Positions 20,419-26,621 of a stretch of DNA of 37,005 nucleotides are shown piece by piece. The stretch is from the NCBI GenBank assembly GCA_017503645.1, contig JAFVSR010000107.1:1-37005 (forward strand), given 5' to 3'. How positions within the stretch are numbered: position 1 is the first letter of the stretch; every line of letters starts with the position of its first letter. A model generated the notes under the pieces. The model searched no databases. It saw only the letters and a program-made list of their open reading frames with translations, and was not told where the DNA came from. Source of the DNA: Bacteroidaceae bacterium. GTDB taxonomy: Bacteria > Bacteroidota > Bacteroidia > Bacteroidales > Bacteroidaceae. A program made the translations under genes and the position numbers.

Positions 20419-20450
20419 TTTGTTATTCAATTTTATAATACTTACATTTG
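20419..20450 (+). promoter_or_regulatory. Glycogen operon promoter
   Basis: TTTG (20419-20422), 20 bases, TACATTTG (20443-20450): every defined base of the Bacteroidales consensus is present. The first gene starts 43 bases downstream. The promoter separates the glycogen genes from the kdsA operon. Confidence 0.88.
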
Positions 20451-20493: not shown

Positions 20494-22446
20494 ATGAGTT
20501 ATTTGCGATTCGAAAAAACGCTGATGACGAACTTGGAAGAGTCGTTGCAAAAGGAGATTTTGAGGACAAACCGTTCGGGTGCTTATCATTGTTCGACAAT
20601 TGTCGATTGCAATACCCGTAAATATCACGGTTTGCTGGTTGTTCCTATCCCACAGCTCGATGACGAGAACCACGTGCTGCTGTCGTCGCTCGACGAGACG
20701 GTAGTTCTGCACGGTGCGGAATTTAACTTGGGATTGCACAAGTACAATGCCGACAACTTCAGTCCCCGCGGTAACAAGTACATTCGTGAGTTCGCCTGGG
20801 AGCGTGTCCCCACCACCATATACAACGTGGGTGGCGTGTGGCTTAAAAAAGAGAAAGCCTTTGTGCATCACGAGAACAGAATTCTTATTCGTTACACCTT
20901 GTTAAAGGCAAACACCCCTGTTACATTGCGCTTGCGCCCCTTCCTGGCGTTCCGCAGCGTGCGTGAATATACACACGAGAACAGCATTGCCGACCGCAGC
21001 TACAAGGAGGTGGAGAATGGTATAAGTATGCGTATGTATGCCGACTACCCCGACCTCTATATGCAGCTGAACAAGAAAAACGAGTTTGTTTATCAGCCCG
21101 ACTGGTATCGCGGTATCGAGTATGTGAAAGAACTCGAGCGTGGTTACGACTTTAACGAGGACCTCTTTGTTCCCGGTTATTTCGAGGTTAAGATGAAGGC
21201 CGGTGAGAGCATTGTGTTCTCGGGCGGTGTGGCTCCTATGACCACACGTACTATGAAGGCGGCCTTTGAACACGAGGAGCAAATTCGCGATCCGCGCGAT
21301 AACTTTATGCACTGTATGCAGTGTGCCGGCAACCAGTTCTTCAATGTACAGGGAGAGCACATCTACATTCTTGCAGGTTATCCCTGGTTCAAGTGCCGTG
21401 CCCGTGACCTCTTTGTGTCGTTGCCCGGTTTGGCATTGTCGCAGGGCCACTATGATGAGTTCGAGAAAGTTATGAAAACTGCAAGCATTGCCATCGACGA
21501 TTTCATAAACGACCGTGTGAGCAATGTGAAGATTTACGAGATGGAGCACCCCGATGTGCTGTTGTGGGCTGTTTGGGCTTTGCAGCAGTATGCCAAGGAG
21601 TGCAGTATGGAGGCTTGCCGCGATAAGTATGGCGACCTGCTGATGCGCATCTTCGACTTCATTCGCAATAACAAACACAACAACTTGCGCGTTGCGCAAA
21701 ACGGCTTGCTGTGGACCAATGGCAAGGACAAGGCAGTTACCTGGATGAACTCTACGGTGAACGGCCGTCCCGTTGTTCCCCGCACGGGCCACGTGGTGGA
21801 GATAAACGCATTGTGGTACAATGCACTTGTGTTCACACAGCAGATGGCCGAGCTTATGCACAACCAACCTGTGCTCGACTCGCTTGTACGCCTCATTCCT
21901 CTCGCAGGCGCAGCATTTGTCGAGGTGTTCCTCAACGAACACGGTTATCTCTACGACTATGTCGATGGTGACTATGTAGATTGGAGCGTACGCCCCAATA
22001 TGATATTTGCCGTTGCTCTCGACAACTCTCCTCTCAATTCAAAACAGAAGAAAAAAGTTCTCGATATTGTTACCCGCGAGCTTCTCACACCGCGCGGTTT
22101 GCGTTCGCTCTCGCCCAAGAGTGTTGGTTACAACCCCAACTATGTGGGCCCGCAGATACAGCGCGACTACGCATACCACCAGGGTACAGCTTGGCCTTGG
22201 CTCGGCGGTTTCTATTACGAGGCTTATTTGAAGATATATAAACTGAGCGGTATCTCATTCGTGGAACGCCAGATGGTGGGCTTTGAGGATGAGATTGTAC
22301 AGCACTGCGTGGGTTCTATCCCCGAGGTGTTCGATGGCAACCCGCCGTTCAAGGGACGTGGTGCCGTGGCGTTTGCAATGAACGTGGCACAAATCTTGAG
22401 AACAAGCCAGCTGCTCAAACAGTATGAATCTAAATTGGAGGGATAA
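20494..22446 (+). CDS. Glycogen debranching enzyme-like protein (GH133)
   Basis: 650 residues. An N-terminal GDE_N beta domain (about 15-250) is followed by a C-terminal (alpha/alpha)6 amylo-alpha-1,6-glucosidase domain (about 275-640). Recognisable GDE signatures are LILAGYPWF-like YILAGYPWF (291-299), VEINALWYNAL (435-445), YDYVDGDYVDWSVRPNMIFA, GTAWPW and IPEVFDGNPP (609-618, Glu611 a likely general base). Two departures stand out. TWMN (416-419) stands where I expect TWMD, whose Asp I take to be the general acid. CRARD (301-305) replaces the usual GRD context. It may remove branch stubs from glycogen, or may bind rather than cut. First gene of a three-gene glycogen operon; five bases separate it from the next gene. 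Confidence 0.88.
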   Translation: MSYLRFEKTLMTNLEESLQKEILRTNRSGAYHCSTIVDCNTRKYHGLLVVPIPQLDDENHVLLSSLDETVVLHGAEFNLGLHKYNADNFSPRGNKYIREFAWERVPTTIYNVGGVWLKKEKAFVHHENRILIRYTLLKANTPVTLRLRPFLAFRSVREYTHENSIADRSYKEVENGISMRMYADYPDLYMQLNKKNEFVYQPDWYRGIEYVKELERGYDFNEDLFVPGYFEVKMKAGESIVFSGGVAPMTTRTMKAAFEHEEQIRDPRDNFMHCMQCAGNQFFNVQGEHIYILAGYPWFKCRARDLFVSLPGLALSQGHYDEFEKVMKTASIAIDDFINDRVSNVKIYEMEHPDVLLWAVWALQQYAKECSMEACRDKYGDLLMRIFDFIRNNKHNNLRVAQNGLLWTNGKDKAVTWMNSTVNGRPVVPRTGHVVEINALWYNALVFTQQMAELMHNQPVLDSLVRLIPLAGAAFVEVFLNEHGYLYDYVDGDYVDWSVRPNMIFAVALDNSPLNSKQKKKVLDIVTRELLTPRGLRSLSPKSVGYNPNYVGPQIQRDYAYHQGTAWPWLGGFYYEAYLKIYKLSGISFVERQMVGFEDEIVQHCVGSIPEVFDGNPPFKGRGAVAFAMNVAQILRTSQLLKQYESKLEG

Positions 22447-22451
22447 GCGAT

Positions 22452-23714
22452 ATGAAAGTATTAATGTTCGGTTGGGAGTTCCCGCCTCACATCTCGGGCG
22501 GACTCGGTACAGCAAGTTACGGACTGACCAAGGGCTTTGTTCAGCAAGGTGATGTGGAGATTAAGTTCTGTATCCCCAAGCCCTATGGCGACGAAGATAA
22601 CAGCTTTTTGAGAATCGTCGGAATGAACTCCGTGCCCATTGTGTGGAAGAACGTAGACAGAGACTATGTAAATTCGCGCATTGGTGCGGTGATGACACCC
22701 GATGAGTATTATCGCTATCGCGAACACATATATGGCGATTTCAGCTATATGCACACCAACGACCTGGGTTGTATGGAGTTTGCCGGTGGTTACCCCGAAA
22801 ATCTTCACGACGAGATTAACAACTACTCTATAATTGCAGGAGTGGTTGCCCGCACCGAGGAGTTCGATATCATCCACTCGCACGACTGGCTCACATACCC
22901 CGCAGGTATCCACGCCAAGCAGGTGTCGGGCAAGAAACTTGTGATACACGTTCACGCTACCGATTTCGACCGTAGCCGTGGTAACGTGAACCCCACCGTT
23001 TATGCCATTGAGAAAAATGGTATGGACAATGCCGACCACATCCTGTGCGTGAGTGAGCTCACACGTCAGACCGTTATCACCAAGTATCATCAGCACCCCG
23101 ACAAGGTGTCTACCCTGCACAACGCGGTTACTCCTTTGTCGCAGGAGATTCTGGATATCGTTCCCAAGAAGATTCCCGGTGAGAAGGTGGTTACCTTCCT
23201 TGGCCGTATAACAATGCAGAAGGGCCCCGAGTATTTTGTTGAGGCTGCTGCAATGGTGCTCAAACGTACAAAGAATATCCGTTTCTGTATGGCCGGTAGC
23301 GGCGATATGATGAACGATATGATACGCCTGGCTGCGCAACGCGGAATTTCGGACCGTTTCCACTTCCCAGGATTTATGCGAGGACGTCAGGTTTATGAGT
23401 GCCTGAAAGCGAGTGATGTGTATATAATGCCCTCGGTAAGTGAGCCGTTCGGTATCTCTCCGTTGGAGGCTATGCAGTGCGATGTGCCCACAATCATTTC
23501 AAAACAGTCGGGTTGTGCCGAGATTCTCGACAAGTGTATCAAAACCGACTATTGGGATATTCACGCAATGGCCGATGCCATCTACTCAATCTGTAACAAC
23601 GAGTCGTTGTATGAGTATTTGAAGGTTGAAGGTCGCAACGAGGTGAACCAAATCACTTGGGAGAACGTAGCTCTTAAACTGCGTAAGGTATATGAAAAAG
23701 TAATGGGTTGGTAA
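22452..23714 (+). CDS. Glycosyltransferase, glycogen-synthase-like (GT4/GT5 type)
   Basis: 420 residues with the GT-B fold. The N-terminal half starts KVLMFGWEFPPHISGGLGTA, with the glycine loop GGLG at 16-19. The C-terminal half has GRITMQKG (251-258), with basic residues contacting the nucleotide sugar, and EPFGISPLE (331-339), the E-x7-E motif. All the residues needed for catalysis appear to be present, in contrast to its neighbours. It probably elongates glycogen from UDP- or ADP-glucose in the cytoplasm. It follows the debranching gene by five bases and precedes the GH57 gene by 20. The genomic trio is, to my knowledge, conserved in Bacteroides. Confidence 0.9.
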   Translation: MKVLMFGWEFPPHISGGLGTASYGLTKGFVQQGDVEIKFCIPKPYGDEDNSFLRIVGMNSVPIVWKNVDRDYVNSRIGAVMTPDEYYRYREHIYGDFSYMHTNDLGCMEFAGGYPENLHDEINNYSIIAGVVARTEEFDIIHSHDWLTYPAGIHAKQVSGKKLVIHVHATDFDRSRGNVNPTVYAIEKNGMDNADHILCVSELTRQTVITKYHQHPDKVSTLHNAVTPLSQEILDIVPKKIPGEKVVTFLGRITMQKGPEYFVEAAAMVLKRTKNIRFCMAGSGDMMNDMIRLAAQRGISDRFHFPGFMRGRQVYECLKASDVYIMPSVSEPFGISPLEAMQCDVPTIISKQSGCAEILDKCIKTDYWDIHAMADAIYSICNNESLYEYLKVEGRNEVNQITWENVALKLRKVYEKVMGW

Positions 23715-23734: not shown

Positions 23735-25117
23735 ATGAAAACAATTTGTTTCTATTTCGAGATTCATCAAATCAGACAGTTGAAACGTTATCGTTTCTTC
23801 GATATTGGTAGTGACCACTACTACTATGACGATTACGCAAACGAGAGCGCAATTACAGAGATAGCAGAGAAATCGTACATCCCCGCATTGACAACATTGC
23901 TGGAGATGGTAAAGGAGAACGATGGTGCTTTCAAGGTAGCCTTCTCGGTATCGGGCGTGGGCTTGGAGATGCTTGAGCTATATGCTCCCCAGGTAATAGA
24001 ACTTTTGCACGAGATTAACAAGACCGGTTGCTGCGAGTTCCTCTGCGAACCCTACTCACACGGCCTCTCTTCACTTGCATCACGCGAGGTGTTTATGGAG
24101 GAGGTTCAGCGTCAGAACCGTAAAATCAAGGAACTCTTTGGCAAGAAACCCAAAGTGTTGCGCAACTCGGGCCTTATCTACTCCGACGAGATTGGTGAGA
24201 TGGCAGCCTCTATGGGCTTCAAGGGTATGCTCTCAGAGGGTGCAAAGCACATCCTTGCTTGGAGAAGCCCCCACTTTGTTTACAACTGCGCTACAGCGCC
24301 TAACCTCAAGCTCCTGTTGCGCGACTATAAGTTGTCCGACGATATCTCGTTGCGTTTCTCTAACCCCAAATGGAGCGAGTATCCATTGTTTGCCGAGACT
24401 TATGTAGACTGGATTGCCCAGCTTCCCGAGGAGGATGAGGTTATCAACATCTTTATGAATCTCCACGCACTTGGTGTATCGCAGCCCTTGTCATCGCACA
24501 TCCTGGATTTCCTCAAGGCTATCCCCGCTTGTGCAAAAGACCGCGGCATCTCGTTCTCTACACCTTCGGAGATTATTGACAAGCATAAGTCTGTAGGTTC
24601 GTTGGAGGTTTCTTATCCCCTCTCTTGGATGGACGAGGAGCGCGACGCAAGCTCTTGGTTGGGTAACTCATTGCAGCGCGAGGCTTTCGACAAACTGTAT
24701 AGCTTGGCAGAGCGTATCTCGCTCTCTGATGATAAGAAGTTGAAACAGGATTTCGACTATCTGCAGGCAGCCGAGAACCTTCGCTTTATGACAACAAAGC
24801 AGAATGGTATCATTACCGAGCGCAGCATCTATGAGTCTCCATACGATGCGTTCACCAACTATATGAACATCCTTGGCGACTTTATGGCACGTGTACGTGC
24901 ACAGTATCCCGAGGAGATGGATAACGAAGAGCTTGGTGCATTGCAGCAGATGATAGAGAACCAGGAGGTTGAAATCGTTCAGCTCGAGGCTGAGGTTGAG
25001 AGCCTTAAGGCAAAACTCGCCACAAAGGCAAAAAAGGCAGCCAAGGCCGTTGAAACTGCCGAGGAGCCCGCTAAAGAGGCTAAACCCAAAGCTGCAAAGG
25101 CAAAAAAGGAGAAGTAA
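23735..25117 (+). CDS. GH57 alpha-amylase-like protein, probably catalytically altered
   Basis: 460 residues. Opens FYFEIHQIRQLKRYRFFDIG, the GH57 region 1 (normally HQP). CEFLCEPYSHGLSSL (100-114) is region 2. In region 3 the family pattern RNTELIY is here RNSGLIY (143-149), placing Gly146 where the nucleophile Glu is expected. In region 4 the pattern FMDYETFG is here FMNLHALG (240-247), placing Asn242 where the acid/base Asp is expected. Both catalytic residues thus seem to be lost. Residues 400-430 form a predicted coiled coil; the last 30 are almost all Lys, Ala, Glu and Pro. It could bind glycogen without cutting it. It is the last gene of the operon, followed by a terminator. Confidence 0.85.
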   Translation: MKTICFYFEIHQIRQLKRYRFFDIGSDHYYYDDYANESAITEIAEKSYIPALTTLLEMVKENDGAFKVAFSVSGVGLEMLELYAPQVIELLHEINKTGCCEFLCEPYSHGLSSLASREVFMEEVQRQNRKIKELFGKKPKVLRNSGLIYSDEIGEMAASMGFKGMLSEGAKHILAWRSPHFVYNCATAPNLKLLLRDYKLSDDISLRFSNPKWSEYPLFAETYVDWIAQLPEEDEVINIFMNLHALGVSQPLSSHILDFLKAIPACAKDRGISFSTPSEIIDKHKSVGSLEVSYPLSWMDEERDASSWLGNSLQREAFDKLYSLAERISLSDDKKLKQDFDYLQAAENLRFMTTKQNGIITERSIYESPYDAFTNYMNILGDFMARVRAQYPEEMDNEELGALQQMIENQEVEIVQLEAEVESLKAKLATKAKKAAKAVETAEEPAKEAKPKAAKAKKEK

Positions 25118-25139: not shown

Positions 25140-25165
25140 GTGGGCAGTGCTATAGCGCTGCCCAC
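25140..25165 (+). terminator. Terminator of the glycogen operon
   Basis: GTGGGCAGTGCTA pairs with TAGCGCTGCCCAC (13 bp, one G-T pair, no unpaired loop bases as drawn) and is followed by a run of seven T. It lies 22 bp after the GH57 stop codon. Confidence 0.9.
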
Positions 25166-25201: not shown

Positions 25202-25233
25202 AAAAAATGCAGTACCGCGGTACTGCATTTTTT
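25202..25233 (-). terminator. Terminator of the DUF4270 transcript
   Basis: A perfect 32-base palindrome with arms AAAAAATGCAGTACCG and its complement. On the minus strand it ends in a T run. It lies 20 bp beyond the DUF4270 stop codon and faces the glycogen terminator. Confidence 0.88.
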
Positions 25234-25253: not shown

Positions 25254-26621
25254 TTATTTGTAACGGCTGCTCACAACCTCAACTTCGATGGGGCGGTTGT
25301 CGCCGCCCTGCAACCTCATATTGCTTAATTGGGTGTAGTGCTTTACCTTCACAAGGTTGCCGTAACCGTCGGTTATGGCATTTATGGGGATGAGTACCAC
25401 CTTCTCCCAATCGGCATCGGCCTCGCCTGCTTCATACTCGCTGTAGCAGTGCTTTATAAGTTTGGCTATGTTGCCGAATGTGTAGCGGTTGCTGTTGCTC
25501 GTGATTGTGGTGTAGAACGATGTGATGTTGTCGCACACCTTGTTCTTTTCGAAGAACTCTGTCATATCCTTCTTGCGCACCATAAGCAGGGTGGTGGGCG
25601 GGTTGAAGTCGTTGTTCTCGTCGGCACGGAAGCCTGCAAATTCTATCTTCACCGAGTTCAGCGTGTCGCCTGCGCACTCCTCCATAATCTCGTCTATTGG
25701 CAGCTCCACCTCGGTAAATATGCCTGCCGGTGTCTTTATGTATGTGGCATCGGTGTTGCTCATATAGGGTGTGAGGTCGCCATTGTCGAACTTGTTAAGC
25801 TGCAATACCTCCTTGTTTGAATAGAAGGGGGTGAAGAGGGTTTCTATGGAATCCTTCTCGCCCGAACTGCTCTTGATGTAGTGGCTGAATGCAACCTCCA
25901 ATCTTGTGCGATAGACATTGATGAGTGTGCCGTCGCCTTGCGAGTTCTTTACATAGATGCCTTTGAACACGTTGTTTATGAAAACCTCGGAGTTCTCAAA
26001 ATCTGCGGGGTTGGCATAATATTGCTGAATTATGCGTGTGCCTATCTCGTTGGGCAATGCAATCTCAATGTTGGCGTCGTAGTTGGCCTCGGTCAGGGAG
26101 TCGTGCAGGGCATAGTCCTTTGCGCTGTAAACTTTTGTGGCAATGGGTGCTTTGCTACGGTCGTAATACTCTCCAAAGTCTATATCGGTGTAGTAGCTCA
26201 CGCCCTCGGCAACAACCTTGTCGAGCTCGTAAACCTCGCATTTCATAGCGTTGTTCTTGTCGCCTGTTATGCTGTCGTAGAATATGCGCAGCTTGGTGTA
26301 CACAGCACTGTTGTCTATAACGCCCTCTTTGGGGAAGGCTTCGTTGTCGCCGCTGGCAAACTGTGTGAGGAAACTTGCCTCGAAGGTCGTGTTGTGCTGT
26401 GGCTCGGTGTAGCGCCCCAGATACATATAGTCCGACTTGTTTATGATGGAATTGCCTGCATCAATGGATTTGCTTTTCGCATAGAAAATCTTTTTGCTTG
26501 CAGTAACAATGTCTTTATCGGGTACAATACTGCTTCCAATCGTCGCAGTTTCATCATCACATCCTGTGAAAGTTAGTATTGCAATGGTTGCAAATAAGAA
26601 AAACGAGATGTACTTTTTCAT
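25254..26621 (-). CDS. DUF4270 family lipoprotein
   Basis: 455 residues. Signal peptide with a lipobox-like LTFTGC and Cys21, so it is probably lipid-anchored, at the outer membrane or cell surface; DDE follows the Cys, an acidic stretch. The opening ATIGSSIVPDKD is typical of DUF4270. The rest is beta-rich (for example DNSAVYTKLRIFYDSI, LNSVKIEFAGF). Function unknown; members are widespread in Bacteroidetes. It lies 87 bp downstream of the GT5-domain gene in the same direction and shares its promoter. My recollection is that this pair and the divergent panC-panD are a conserved arrangement in Bacteroides. Confidence 0.85.
   Translation of the reverse strand: MKKYISFFLFATIAILTFTGCDDETATIGSSIVPDKDIVTASKKIFYAKSKSIDAGNSIINKSDYMYLGRYTEPQHNTTFEASFLTQFASGDNEAFPKEGVIDNSAVYTKLRIFYDSITGDKNNAMKCEVYELDKVVAEGVSYYTDIDFGEYYDRSKAPIATKVYSAKDYALHDSLTEANYDANIEIALPNEIGTRIIQQYYANPADFENSEVFINNVFKGIYVKNSQGDGTLINVYRTRLEVAFSHYIKSSSGEKDSIETLFTPFYSNKEVLQLNKFDNGDLTPYMSNTDATYIKTPAGIFTEVELPIDEIMEECAGDTLNSVKIEFAGFRADENNDFNPPTTLLMVRKKDMTEFFEKNKVCDNITSFYTTITSNSNRYTFGNIAKLIKHCYSEYEAGEADADWEKVVLIPINAITDGYGNLVKVKHYTQLSNMRLQGGDNRPIEVEVVSSRYK

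Follow-up and report, generated by a model that had tools for sequence, protein, structure and literature searches.

Catalysis-lacking look-alikes of GH57 enzymes are already known. The alpha-amylase-like GH57 group is nearest to the alpha-amylases, has a typical length of 443 residues and has one or both catalytic residues replaced; 126 members are listed, 66 of them bacterial (PMC6037648). According to the same source, logo position 12, which is Arg in most alpha-amylases, is not occupied by Trp or another aromatic amino acid in this group, and the Tyr-Tyr that closes region 5 ranks first in importance among the features of the alpha-amylase logo; in its sections on these proteins the source gives no function for the group and defers detailed analysis of the ‘like’ groups (PMC6037648). 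A 2024 Chem Rev review asks, in its passage on these proteins, whether archaeal GH57 amylase and amylase-like proteins could be missing branching enzymes (PMC11046441). Bacteroidetes are described as having no GlgC, yet 27 strains of B. fragilis make intracellular polysaccharide (PMC10395257, relevant section). In B. thetaiotaomicron, BT_4303 belongs to GH133, and BT_4305 was tabulated in 2026 as GH57 with Glc alpha1-4 (PMC12834350, tabulated entries). The literature we searched, in which subscription papers are few, offered no functional study of GH57 amylase-like proteins, no order-wide history of catalytic loss and no report of GH57 ‘pseudoenzymes’. We here analyze a GH57 gene in a 37,005-nucleotide stretch of DNA from a Bacteroidaceae bacterium (the window). 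To the known group we add the stepwise loss of the catalytic residues across the order, the operon and the selection on the gene.

Catalytic positions and family signatures

The gene lies at positions 23735-25117 on the forward strand, an unbroken frame with an ATG start and a TAA stop that encodes 460 aa and matches PF03065 (GH57) over residues 6-290 (E = 3.5e-58; 197.6 bits against a curated cut-off of 21.2). This profile match leads us to expect the GH57 fold, a (beta/alpha)7 barrel with a helical bundle. NCBIfam has no family for the protein at E <= 0.001, only weak scattered matches at E <= 0.1, and a PDB search with the single window sequence returned one chain, a protease at E 0.85, which we took as chance. 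Residues 88-163 also match PF01522 (E 2.3e-5; 24.8 bits against a cut-off of 23.1), from which a polysaccharide deacetylase-like activity could be read. However, 47 of 49 family members match PF01522 (E <= 0.01), so that the match is not peculiar to the lineage without catalytic residues and most likely reflects a related barrel fold; we rejected this reading as highly improbable.

Competent GH57 alpha-amylases have a Glu nucleophile at logo position 15 and an Asp proton donor at logo position 20. In the window protein, region 3 (RNSGLIY, residues 143-149, 24161-24181, forward strand) has Gly at the nucleophile position 146 (codon GGC), and region 4 (FMNLHALGVS, residues 240-249, 24452-24481, forward strand) has Asn at the acid/base position 242 (codon AAT). 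The register is fixed by 99 homologues from other lineages, in which the two columns are Glu and Asp and the motifs mostly read RNTELI and FMDYETFG. When 49 relatives were combined into a profile, residue 349 of Thermotoga AmyC (PDB 2B5D) fell in the family's Asp column, in a match with a whole-sequence E of 1.4e-4 whose three stretches are individually not significant. D349 is the acid/base residue of AmyC and H10 its polarizer, according to the source's account of the active site (PMC6616209). Judged by its motif, His11 of the window protein may be the counterpart of H10. A sequence-only reading of the window had proposed that both catalytic residues are replaced, and the alignment of regions 3 and 4, with E and D in the homologues where the window protein has G and N, upholds both the claim and the positions. 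Glu105 was considered as a substitute catalytic residue and rejected: of the homologues with Glu146, 94% have Glu105 as well, and because the two occur together in active-type homologues Glu105 is not a replacement. We consider it very probable that the protein is catalytically inactive. Its substituted catalytic pair in an alpha-amylase relative, together with Arg143 at logo position 12, fits the alpha-amylase-like GH57 group without catalytic residues, a group that the sequence-only reading had mentioned and to which these features now support membership. A 2011 paper on alpha-amylase-like GH57 proteins reportedly includes Bacteroides.

The rest of the family signatures, previously described as intact, are not. 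At position 13, P is replaced by I, so that HQP becomes HQI (HQL in about one-third of the window genus), D-Y-E at positions 242-244 of region 4 becomes N-L-H, and in region 5 (LQAAENLRF, residues 343-351, 24761-24787, forward strand) active-type homologues have D-H and Y-Y where the window protein has E-N (347-348) and R-F (350-351). Across lineages, the D of DYETF changes to E or N, the Y to L and the E to S, C, H or others, followed by A; SDHFYY becomes SNNFRF in Bacteroidaceae and AENLRF or similar in the window genus, ETYSHS becomes EPYSHG, the TE of region 3 becomes SS or SG, and three residues are missing after position 356. Tyr is found at each of positions 350 and 351 in 91-93% of homologues with E and D, and competent alpha-amylases have Tyr-Tyr at logo positions 35-36, which by our own placing of the logo on the window sequence are Arg350-Phe351. 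We compared the commonest residue at each of the 149 positions that are at least 90% conserved across the 99 homologues having the catalytic pair: it is unchanged at 142 of them in the sister lineages, at 113 in other Bacteroidaceae and at 106 in the window genus. The 43 positions altered in the genus lie in many cases inside GH57 signatures, and H11, Q12, E101, E105, H109, W176, W213 and W298 are among those retained.

The protein ends in a tail that is coil-like and rich in Lys, Ala and Glu by composition (residues 392-460, 24908-25114, forward strand). This tail had been regarded as a C-terminal addition, a view that does not hold because such tails are common among homologues keeping both catalytic residues: 76 of 99 have at least 20 residues beyond position 391 (median 74, n = 99, with 5 frames running up to the end of the available DNA), and the Lys share of the tail is similar.

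Distribution and history of the replacement

The 315 loci sampled gave 263 distinct GH57 sequences, once a fragment, 19 duplicates and another copy of the window gene had been removed. Gly146 and Asn242 are found in all 32 distinct sequences of the window genus, and Ser and Glu occupy these positions in all 74 other Bacteroidaceae-type sequences; 71 of these 74 were drawn from the 80 best among 594 confirmed matches, which cover Bacteroides, Phocaeicola, Paraprevotella, Mediterranea and others, and the remaining three are L041, L058 and L181. This uniformity means that the replacement is not a sequencing error. The 74, all without both catalytic residues, include the GH57 proteins of B. fragilis (L156) and P. 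vulgatus (L125). In the sister lineages (n = 44), Glu146 is retained in 41 sequences and Asp242 in none; the three that have lost Glu as well are L228, L235 and L244. The other lineages contribute the 99 sequences with both residues and 14 without one or both. One genome of another Bacteroidales family (G438) has two GH57 genes, L181 (S/E, Bacteroidaceae type), which is 66% identical to the window protein, and L214 (E/N, sister type), which reflects either horizontal transfer or assembly contamination.

The Glu at position 242 in these 74 sampled sequences is an argument for a remaining or new enzyme, in which this residue in the S/E relatives, or another acidic residue, would run a different alpha-glucan reaction. 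E101 is conserved in all five sequence groups and E105 in four of five, which also favors it. However, the window genus has Gly146 and Asn242, E105 is present in active-type homologues too, and D347 and H348 of region 5 are replaced; we regard such an enzyme as unlikely. No second GH57 that could supply the lost activity was found in the window's genome (86% complete) by protein or Pfam search. Within the 61-genome set, the GH57s with both catalytic residues in the same operon are 39-50% identical to the window protein.

We built a large tree, with the motif columns excluded, from 7 of the 32 genus sequences, 14 of the 74 of the other Bacteroidaceae type and all 157 others, in total 178 of the 263. 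At least 9 changes are needed on it for the nucleophile, 6 for the acid/base residue and 10 for either. The 7 genus, 14 other Bacteroidaceae-type and 44 sister sequences form a clade of 65 that is wholly without Asp (SH-aLRT 100). In a more careful tree of 52 rows, the Asp-less clade (32 rows) and the Bacteroidaceae type (8 rows) both have support of 100/100, and both sit on long stems. The trees thus support a first step in which the acid/base Asp was probably lost in the ancestor of one large Bacteroidales clade, and in the simplest order the nucleophile Glu would then have changed to Ser or Gly at the base of the Bacteroidaceae, along with the changes in region 5. No root was inferred, and we take the direction to be loss rather than gain because 99 sequences outside the clade have both residues. 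The trees also support smaller, apparently separate losses elsewhere in the order, in the 14 sequences outside the clade without one or both residues (for example L063, L064, L066, L230, L264, L305, L307, L308 and L314).

The glycogen operon and selection on its third gene

A match to TTTG-N20-TACATTTG, which we take to be the Bacteroides-type promoter consensus, is located at 20419-20450 (forward strand) and ends 43 bases before the first operon gene; the whole window has 4 matches to the pattern against 0.64 expected, and 4 were reached in 1 of 100 shuffles. The first gene encodes a glycogen debranching enzyme of 650 aa (20494-22446, forward strand; GDE_N E 1.9e-82, GDE_C E 2.3e-70), presumably of family GH133. 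The second encodes a GT4-type, glycogen-synthase-like glycosyltransferase of 420 aa (22452-23714, forward strand; Glycos_transf_1 E 1.7e-33), with an EX7E motif (E331-E339). The GH57 gene is third, the intergenic gaps are 5 and 20 bases, and a strong intrinsic terminator with an 11-pair stem and a T run follows at 25140-25165 (forward strand). The promoter and terminator attributed to the operon from the sequence are both in place, the former as a consensus match. The family number GH133 for the debranching enzyme also comes from the tabulated entries of PMC12834350. Inspection by eye showed a perfect 32-base palindrome flanked by A and T runs at 25202-25233, where GH57 and DUF4270 converge; it resembles a bidirectional terminator, in addition to the one at 25140-25165. 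The DUF4270 protein (25254-26621, reverse strand) scores 311.8 bits with the NCBIfam BamH model, under its cut-off of 670.

GT4 is immediately upstream of GH57 and in the same direction in 145 of 149 scanned loci, some of which overlap; three of the four loci without GT4 start at a contig edge and the fourth (L083) has approximately 0.9 kb upstream without GT4. The debranching enzyme precedes GT4 in 104 of the 149, and the others mostly have too little upstream DNA. A GH133-GT4-GH57 glycogen operon with GH57 third is widespread in Bacteroidales.

The median dN/dS of GH57 in the window genus is 0.048 (269 pairs with dS of 0.15-1.6), compared with 0.021 for the adjacent GT4 (210 pairs). Other Bacteroidaceae give 0.121 for GH57 (114 pairs) and 0.062 for GT4 (170 pairs). 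All four values were obtained by simple counting where dS is high, and the active-type group was set aside because its 14 pairs are near-saturated. GH57 is under strong purifying selection, although at approximately twice the dN/dS of GT4 in both sets it is held less tightly. The gene is present in 60 of 61 genomes (own genome counted) and in 268 of 295 genomes of the order; the 27 without a GH57 match imply that it is dispensable there or absent from the assembly. A pseudogene or relic on its way out might be suspected from the loss of both catalytic residues and a dN/dS above that of GT4, but the intact frame, the dN/dS of 0.048, the retention across genomes and the preserved operon argue so strongly against decay that we rejected it as a very remote prospect, in agreement with the sequence-only reading.

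GT3, GT35 and GlgB-like genes in the same genomes

Outside the family, 24 genomes of the order (G037-G060) were examined, and 18 of them have a fused GT3-GT35 gene of approximately 1340-1450 residues, in many cases directly after GH57. In four sister genomes GT3 (approximately 550 residues) and GT35 (approximately 855) are separate genes on a different contig from GH57, and they are also separate in the window genus. A GT35 search in genomes of the clade gave 31 with a match, 30 with frames of 850-879 residues and one (G595) of 1107. G040 (L064) has GT35 adjoining GH57 and no GT3 match in the genome, and G047 (61% complete) has neither gene. Two lineages, f5 (L064, L277, L290) and f121 (L225, L306, L307), have a GT35 of approximately 860 residues beside a GH57 with altered motifs. 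The window's own genome (86% complete) has neither GT3 nor GT35; GT35 is over cut-off in 54 of 61 genomes. In a table of 78 rows, 23 have both catalytic residues and the fusion, 43 have lost catalysis and are unfused, 10 have lost catalysis and are fused, and 2 have both residues and are unfused, counts that outside the 65-sequence clade become 23, 4, 10 and 2; G595 and G622 (no GT35 match) were omitted, G526 (1312 residues) was counted as fused, and G455, G466 and G552 were unused, their GH57 not having been fetched. In five independent pairs the traits agree in 1 or 2 and disagree in 0 (1 in some draws), with which a sign test cannot reach significance. The link between loss of catalysis and the unfusing of GT3-GT35 is only a hint, given that it is not significant once shared ancestry is counted.

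The GlgB model has some match in 57 of 61 genomes, a match at E < 1e-50 in 54 and none over the curated cut-off. GlgB-like GH13 genes (E < 1e-50) are present in 42 of 44 genomes with a residue-lacking GH57 (37 of the window genus, for which residue states were carried over from the sequences read, 4 sister and 3 others; the two without a match are 63% and 55% complete) versus 11 of 16 with both residues. Three genomes of other families have no GlgB-like match (G045, G048 and G052) and two have weak ones (G053 and G060), and all five have GH57 with both catalytic residues. Two of the former three are 96-99% complete. In these three the intact GH57 may be the branching enzyme. The contrast hints that the intact GH57 may have a function, perhaps branching, in which GlgB can replace it, and only hints, since 37 of the 44 genomes represent one genus. 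In the window genome, the GlgB-like match (G000:C70:9272-11107) has one TAG inside the matched stretch.

A proposed role and comparison with known systems

With core, operon and strong selection kept while the catalytic pair is gone, the protein acts most likely by binding. We propose, with a probability of roughly 0.55, that it serves the neighboring glycogen enzymes as a subunit that lacks catalysis and binds glucan or a partner, and the glycogen binding or regulation suggested by the sequence-only reading is plausible. The GH57 barrel would have no hydrolase or transferase activity but would still bind alpha-glucan chains, or the two neighboring enzymes, through its retained conserved residues. 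As an accessory subunit it would hold glycogen chains for GT4 and the GH133 debranching enzyme, or tune them, and the loss of catalysis would perhaps be tolerated since a GH13 branching-enzyme relative is present. The retained positions could, however, serve folding alone, and since 43 of the 149 conserved positions have changed, many in signatures, glucan binding in the old cleft may be lost too. A regulatory or structural protein without glucan binding, in which the barrel surface and the tail make only protein contacts with GT4, the debranching enzyme or another protein, is a less probable but real contender: regions 4 and 5 are replaced beyond the catalytic pair and the tail is kept, whereas H11, Q12, E105, H109 and several Trp are retained and the tail is shared with lineages that keep the catalytic residues.

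Extending the proposed subunit role to the order, the glycogen-operon GH57 of one large Bacteroidales group might have become, over two steps, an obligate subunit of a glycogen machine of GT4 and GH133 with no catalysis of its own, for example a chain holder or priming factor. We offer this as a tentative idea with the odds against it; if true, it would go some way towards explaining glycogen synthesis and remodeling in Bacteroidota that have no GlgC. The living intermediates with Glu kept and Asp lost (41 of 44 sister sequences) are a clear case of how an enzyme may become a subunit.

Bacteroidales GH57s with both residues are likewise found directly after GT4. Unlike the window protein, they mostly have RNTELI, FMDYETFGEH and SDHFYY, and in most of the genomes examined GT3-GT35 is fused (approximately 1400 residues), often right after GH57. 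In B. thetaiotaomicron, BT_4303 and BT_4305 represent two families of the window operon and are two locus tags apart, with BT_4304 presumably a glycosyltransferase. The activity label for BT_4305 looks doubtful because the sampled Bacteroidaceae-type relatives (74 of 74), which stand in here for the BT_4305 sequence itself, are without both catalytic residues. Hence, a GH57 annotation or a Glc alpha1-4 label may mislead predictions of carbohydrate use for common gut bacteria.
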